Shown piece by piece: positions 20,306 to 21,025 of a stretch of DNA of 64,000 bases. The translations under genes were made by a program, and so were the position numbers. The notes under the pieces were generated by a model. The model was not told the origin of the DNA. It ran no database searches and saw only the letters and a program-made list of their open reading frames with translations. Positions within the stretch are counted from its first letter, which is position 1. Each line of letters begins with the position of its first letter. The stretch covers positions 1-64,000 of the forward strand of contig JNDT01002264.1 in assembly GCA_000697055.1 (NCBI GenBank). Direction: 5' to 3'. This DNA comes from Saksenaea vasiformis B4078. Lineage: Eukaryota; Mucoromycota; Mucoromycetes; Mucorales; Saksenaeaceae.

Positions 20306-21025
20306 TTAACGCGAGGTAGCGGCAGCCTTGGGAGCAAAGCCCTTGGCTTGTTGCTTGCTGACCTTGGGAGCACCCTGGGGAGCCTATTCTCCACATTAGC
20401 AACATGCTCATTTCAAACGAATCATAACACTTACAGCAGCCTTCTTAGCAGCCTGAGCAGCCTTCTTGGCTTCCTTGCTCTTGGCAATAGCAGCCTGGCG
20501 GGCGGCAGCACGGGCTTCAGGCTTCATGGAGCGCTTGGCACGGATAGCATCCCACGAGGCACCAACAACGGCACGATCGTGCTTGACGGTGCGGCGAGTG
20601 CGCTTCTTGGCGATCTCCTCAGTGATACCCTTCTTGTTCAAGCGACGGTAGATTACGGTCCACTTGATCTTGCGAGGGTTCAACTTCTGAAGGAAGTACG
20701 ATTCGGCCTTGCCGTTGATGAAGCGGAAGGTCTAAAATACAAATTCAATCGTCCTGTCCTGTCTCCTTCATTTTTTTTCAGGGTTCGAAAATGGGGCACT
20801 TACTCTGTTACAAAAGAAAAAAAAGGGAGCGTCAGAAACCCAACTCTATGAACACCAAGTTGCAACATACCTGCTATCGATACGGACATAGGTCTTACCC
20901 TTACCAGGGTAGATCTTGTAGCCAGAGAACGAACAAATCTCAAGCCTGCAAAAAATAATCGGTTAATCTCTTGTCGTATCAATGGATGGACTCGTTATGT
21001 CGATGGATCGATAGGTTTACTTCAT
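20306..21025 (-). CDS. RPL24: Large-subunit ribosomal protein eL24, 151 aa, with apparent 1-nt microexon
   Basis: Five exons: complement(20306-20383, 20435-20731, 20804, 20871-20945, 21021-21025). The N-terminus [19 protein letters not shown] is the classic eL24 zinc-ribbon-like domain. It continues with [35 protein letters not shown] and [18 protein letters not shown], then an Ala/Lys-rich tail. The first coding exon is only 5 nt (ATGAA). Between exon 2 (ending GATAGCAG) and the ACCTTCCGC exon, direct splicing would shift the frame. A single A at 20804, flanked by a T-rich tract, AACAG and GTAAGTG, restores it and gives DSRTFRF, the length seen in other eL24 proteins. See the findings. The protein sits at the 60S interface and contributes an intersubunit bridge. 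Confidence 0.95.
20804..20804 (-). other. Predicted single-nucleotide microexon of eL24
   Basis: The base A (T on the plus strand) lies between a strong acceptor (CTTTTGTAACAG) and a strong donor (GTAAGTG). The flanking introns are 66 nt (20805-20870) and 72 nt (20732-20803). Including it turns AG plus A into an Arg codon and keeps the downstream frame. The codon just before the downstream exon is TAG in the required frame, so no upstream alternative acceptor can work. Confidence 0.7.

Follow-up and report, generated by a model that had tools for sequence, protein, structure and literature searches.

The window, a stretch of 64,000 nucleotides from Saksenaea vasiformis B4078 (contig JNDT01002264.1, positions 1 to 64,000), contained a gene for the ribosomal protein eL24. 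The coding part of this gene was located on the minus strand, from window position 21025 to 20306. Its features were as follows, where C548 is the contig of the window and C334 and C422 are contigs with two further eL24 copies.

21021..21025, minus strand: coding part of eL24 exon 1 (ATGAA), from sequence reading, the splice model and translation
20946..21020, minus strand: intron 1, 75 nt, GTAAAC to TTTTGCAG, from the splice model; position identical in both paralogs
20871..20945, minus strand: exon 2, 75 nt, last bases GATAGCAG, phase 2, from the sequence and the splice model
20805..20870, minus strand: intron A, 66 nt, GTATGT to TTTTGTAACAG, with a branch-like CTGAC whose A lies 27 nt before the last base
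20804..20804, minus strand: proposed exon of one nucleotide, A, which completes the Arg27 codon (AG+A) as its third base; same base in C334 and C422, between AG and GTANGT
20732..20803, minus strand: intron B, 72 nt, GTAAGTG to TATTTTAG, at a position common to the phase-0 intron of the paralog RLP24
20435..20731, minus strand: exon 3, 297 nt, starting with ACCTTCCGC and encoding TFRFINGK...KKAA, from the splice model
20384..20434, minus strand: last intron, 51 nt, GTAAGT to GAGAATAG, from the splice model
20306..20383, minus strand: exon 4 to the stop codon TAA, from the splice model

Exon 2 ended in phase 2 at 20871 (GAT AGC AG), and exon 3 was entered in phase 0 at 20731 (ACC TTC CGC), with TTTTAG directly before it. 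This phase conflict, described in an earlier note on the same DNA, was confirmed, and direct joining of the two exons shifted the frame as the note had stated, with a stop after 43 residues in the translated splice model. The note had also identified a single A at 20804, which is a T on the plus strand. This base was indeed located between the acceptor TTTTGTAACAG, ending at 20805, and the donor GTAAGTG, starting at 20803. The length of 138 nt that had been given for the whole interval was incorrect, and positions 20732 to 20870 comprise 139 nt (66 + 1 + 72). Retention of the A completed Arg27 (AG+A) and restored the frame DSR-TFRF, and the full model with this base was a normal-looking eL24 of 151 amino acids. 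Of 89 matched eL24-like PDB chains, the five whose alignments were printed had no gap at the joint.

When the complete genome (38.7 Mb in 666 contigs) was searched with Pfam, eight exon matches were obtained at four places, which were read as three eL24 copies (C548, C422, and C334) and the paralog RLP24 on contig C394, named from its protein-search matches. The three eL24 genes had a common five-exon plan and diverged introns, with 5 to 7 of 152 aligned codons different. The lengths of the first four exons (5, 75, 1, and 297 nt) were the same in all three. Between exons 2 and 3, each copy contained YAG|A|GTANGT, the single base being A each time, so arranged that a canonical acceptor, one base and a canonical donor were flanked by a plausible GT-AG intron on each side. 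The flanking introns A and B measured 66 and 72 nt in C548, 47 and 176 nt in C422, and 56 and 98 nt in C334. Skipping of the A gave 43 residues followed by a stop in all three copies, and retention of either intron also gave an early stop in all three. A good branch-like CTGAC was present 27 nt from the end of intron A in C548, intron B of C548 and C334 had no branch-like site of the form [CT]TNA[CT], and the short intron A of C422 (47 nt) had only CTCAT near its end.

Fourfold-degenerate sites differed between the copies at 25/72, 21/72, and 31/70 positions. When the introns were compared with shuffled sequences after the splice sites had been cut off, five of six comparisons gave z values of −1.1 to +0.8. 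The sixth, intron A of C422 against that of C334, was above the shuffles (z +2.45), so this pair is not wholly independent. In 20,000 random sequences from a first-order model, a YAG-N-GTANGT so placed that an intron would fit on either side occurred in 0.09% (C548), 0.36% (C422), and 0.83% (C334) of trials. Because the motif was kept in three of three copies with diverged introns and is rare by chance, maintenance by selection is its simplest explanation. The same observations bear on a one-base assembly or sequencing error at the joint, which the earlier note had itself raised and which would produce a false frameshift of this kind. Such an error is very unlikely, its probability being close to negligible, because three eL24 copies, each on its own contig and with different, largely unrelated introns, agree in the phase conflict and carry AG|A|GTANGT at one and the same place, and because the eL24 models of relatives stumble at the same joint.

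Other microexons could be spelled in some copies. C422 and C334, unlike C548, allowed in-phase microexons 10 to 28 nt long, none of which lay at a place common to all copies. A second candidate one-nucleotide A in C422 (ATACAG|A|GTCCGG, with introns of 185 and 38 nt) had a weaker donor and likewise no place common to all copies.

Single introns that would keep the frame without a stop were listed with GT-AG or GC-AG ends, donors at most 60 nt from where exon 2 ends, and acceptors lying between 60 nt upstream and 45 nt downstream of the exon 3 start. Within this range, six were found in C548, seven in C422, and four in C334, and no single GT-AG or GC-AG intron kept both the frame and the VRIDSR segment in all three copies. 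Splice sites were scored against 30 putative introns from 34 clusters of contig C548 (YAG acceptors, lengths of 44–110 nt, no homology check), a rough set. Of two earlier intron sets, one yielded a single intron, and the other, which was dropped, yielded 51 with an implausible acceptor profile in which A was commonest at −3. On the rough scale, the inner acceptors and donors at the one-base exon fell between the 30th and 53rd percentiles.

Only one frame-keeping single intron in the listed range lay at a place common to all three copies. Its donor, TAT|GTCCGY, is inside exon 2 and would join KTY to TFRF with the loss of VRIDSR. In C548 this donor scored at the 20th percentile of the rough set, within its range, and several deposited models (e.g., P0004, P0020, and P0021) use the junction. 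However, all 58 of the listed eL24 proteins outside Mucoromycotina kept the VRIDSR segment intact, as did the five PDB alignments that were printed, residues V22, R23, and D25 were invariant in the eL24 alignment A1 (15 rows, chosen among intact models), and the conserved AG|A|GTANGT would be left unexplained. This intron is therefore a decidedly unlikely solution. The donor GTTGCA, four bases downstream of the exon 2 end, had been mentioned in the earlier note as an alternative that adds one residue and is far from consensus. It was present in the window copy and would give DSRY-TFRF, and an in-frame counterpart, GTGTTA, was found in C334 but none in C422. Every one of the 30 putative introns in the rough set scored higher than both donors, and the added tyrosine has no equivalent in the five printed PDB alignments, which makes splicing from this site highly improbable.

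Non-canonical splicing shifted by one base, either TA..AG or GT..TA/CA, would retain one G (AGG = Arg) and leave the protein unchanged in each of the three copies. These junctions need TA donors or non-AG acceptors (TA or CA) next to canonical sites and leave the internal AG|A|GTANGT of all three copies unexplained, and this type of splicing is hardly credible here. The site also differed from a recursive splice site with a zero-length exon, since one base separated AG from GT in all three copies.

The letters at 20799–20806 on the minus strand, AGAGTAAG, also spell the junction of a [D1,2] stwintron (AGAG|TAAGT, with G left at the exon end). The other two eL24 copies spell such a junction as well. 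Its use would shift the frame, but it could give rise to mis-splicing. As the normal route, such a stwintron would have an internal intron GTANNN..AGAG, after whose removal G + TAAGT or TACGT would rebuild the external donor (G + TANGT), which the letters allow in all three copies. However, it removes one base more rather than fewer and shifts the frame in each copy (DSN-LPL or DSN-FPL), so that it is exceedingly unlikely as the source of functional eL24.

The joint was also examined in the protein models of relatives. A protein search returned 623 eL24-like proteins, of which the best 120 were examined, a selection that may hide badly broken models. A model was scored as intact by an author-written pattern, V-R-x-D-x-R/K-x-F-R-F, and clades were assigned from organism names. 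Among these best 120 of 623, the joint was broken in 37/56 Mucorales, 6/6 Umbelopsis, and 0/58 other models, the last group including Mortierella, chytrids, Dikarya, and unnamed metagenome proteins. Public records that looked faulty at the DSR-TFRF joint thus numbered 43 of the 62 Mucorales and Umbelopsis entries among the matches listed. The 19 of 56 listed Mucorales models that were clean may have included the one-nucleotide exon or may come from genes that lost an intron; P0010 (Rhizopus microsporus, DSRYFKF) was scored as clean by the pattern though its Y is odd.

As a control, 51 of the best 120 of 5716 RLP24 matches were examined, namely those belonging to Mucoromycotina by name or ranked among them (P0121–P0170 and P0221, with P0134 carrying no name). 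Here too, the restriction to the best 120 may conceal models that are badly broken. The joint was intact in 50 and broken in one. The errors in eL24 are therefore not general carelessness with these genomes, on the assumption that the two genes are comparable, the intron at the joint having been seen in the RLP24 of this genome only. Fisher tests gave 5e-15 against RLP24 and 6e-18 against the other eL24 proteins, values which serve as a guide only as related species are not independent.

The faulty letters themselves were compared with the reading frames of the two introns. Read-through of intron B in this genome gave DSRVSA (C548), DSRVRI (C422), and DSRVSD (C334), and read-through of intron A gave DSRYVA (C548), DSR-stop (C422), and DSRYVL (C334). 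Among 13 models picked by eye for foreign residues after an intact DS, seven read R-V-[RCS] (Mucor, Rhizopus, Absidia, and Rhizomucor), as expected from read-through of A|GTANGT, and two read R-Y-[VA]. Nine of the 13 were therefore consistent with reading through one donor or the other, and four (P0014, P0015, P0076, and P0093) fitted neither directly. Outside this set, P0003, P0019, and P0073 kept DS and lost the residues after it. The Choanephora model P0037, decoded by hand from its protein letters, had exon 2 in a shifted frame, and its later residues would fit a 70-nt intron of the form GTAAR..TAYAG that had been retained, with A and then ACC behind it. For the relatives, we infer the gene structure at the joint from such faulty protein letters. 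Some of these species may instead have a plain phase-0 intron at AGA|GTANGT, though gene finders should then have managed it easily.

The closest listed matches of both eL24 and RLP24 were from Apophysomyces ossiformis (95% and 92%, respectively). Its three listed eL24 entries (P0001, P0004, and P0022) were all broken at the joint, each differently. Protein similarity thus places the window in Mucorales, with Apophysomyces the nearest among the matches. An eL24 protein deposited under the fern Adiantum nelumboides (P0111) looked almost identical to two unnamed metagenome entries, P0102 and P0116, so that the fern assembly may be contaminated at this protein. A search of viral and genome contig collections with alignment A1 gave 90 and 46 pattern matches, none of which encodes eL24.

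A real one-base exon was by far the best reading of the joint, supported by the frame, by AG|A|GTANGT in two diverged paralogs, and by faulty Mucorales and Umbelopsis models next to clean RLP24 models, as the earlier note had proposed from the window copy. It is very likely that eL24 has a constitutive exon consisting of the A at 20804, that introns A (66 nt) and B (72 nt) are spliced in turn, and that intron A was gained beside an older intron B. The sequence, the frame, the conservation in three paralogs, and the pattern of faulty models were observed directly, and the actual splicing, its order, and its age are inferred. Removal of intron A would join exon 2 to the A, and removal of intron B would join the A to exon 3. 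The acceptor of intron A and the donor of intron B are one base apart, and factors bound to both would collide, so the two introns would be removed in turn, by intron definition. The donor context of intron B, AGA|GTANGT, was identical before and after removal of intron A in all three copies. U1 could therefore bind at any time, and either order of removal would be workable. Stepwise splicing of the pair, suggested in the earlier note, is a reasonable but unproven account.

The RLP24 gene of this genome (locus L001, contig C394) had a 44-nt phase-0 intron at NDAK|TFRF, a joint homologous to that of eL24 intron B. This suggests that the position of intron B predates the split of eL24 and RLP24, or that it was gained twice. 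Because RLP24 shares the position, intron B would be the old intron and intron A a later gain one base upstream. The gain of intron A would have preceded the divergence of the three eL24 copies of this genome, and probably also the split of Mucorales and Umbelopsidales, with a probable spread of the one-nucleotide exon over both orders as judged from the protein models. It is unlikely that the exon has been kept since before that split as a switch, by which mis-spliced mRNA with an early stop (43 residues if the A is skipped) tunes the output of eL24.

If the constitutive one-nucleotide exon is real, a housekeeping gene of the ribosome relies on the accurate splicing of an exon of minimal size, probably in a whole fungal group. 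High expression is expected of a ribosomal-protein gene, and the locus would be a natural test of how a spliceosome copes when only one base separates an acceptor from a donor. An old duplicate would allow the exon to be dated, as RLP24 has just one intron at this joint, in the older position. The exon would also account for the apparent faults at one place in 43 of the 62 eL24 models listed for Mucorales and Umbelopsis, and it would show how such models can be corrected.

Among the open-licence papers listed, there was no report of a one-nucleotide exon in a ribosomal-protein gene or in Mucoromycota, and the known cases come from other genes. The single-nucleotide exon of Arabidopsis APC11 was described as constitutive, and Guo and Liu argued there for intron definition combined with stepwise removal (PMC4674806). 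One-nucleotide microexons were reported for plant APC11 and VPS55 (PMC8831610). As in eL24, these exons were missed by annotations. They are kept across plant species (PMC4674806, PMC8831610), and in VPS55 the one-base exon is followed by a conserved donor, GTRAGT (PMC8831610). They differ from eL24 in gene and kingdom. One-base exons between two introns were also described in placozoan cox1 (PMC5436844) and in Ophiostoma mitochondrial rnl (PMC12308204), which unlike eL24 are organellar genes, the introns beside the Ophiostoma exon being group II rather than spliceosomal.

Stwintrons, including the "sensu lato" forms of Lipomyces, resemble the eL24 pair in having two neighbouring introns, consecutive reactions near one intron position, and a proposed gain of a splice site in or beside a donor (PMC9024468, PMC7138796). 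However, a stwintron leaves nothing between its parts (PMC9024468, PMC7138796), whereas eL24 would keep one coding base and the donor of intron B is intact in the pre-mRNA. The one-nucleotide exon of Fusarium CYP621A, called by its authors the first for a fungal gene, was likewise deduced from exons in conflicting phases and from an AG-N-GT that is conserved, and the whole interval in F. graminearum is also 139 nt (PMC12940212). In CYP621A the base is a G, central in a Gly codon of a P450 gene described as rarely expressed (PMC12940212), whereas in eL24 it is an A, third in an Arg codon of a ribosomal-protein gene of Mucorales present in three copies. RNA evidence was given for the plant exons, with GFP-fusion assays for APC11 (PMC4674806, PMC8831610), and RNA reads for CYP621A (PMC12940212), whereas the eL24 exon is predicted from sequence. 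The eL24 case would join a known but very small kind of exon, among which it stands out by the gene concerned, by its presence in three copies, and by a range that probably covers Mucorales and Umbelopsidales.
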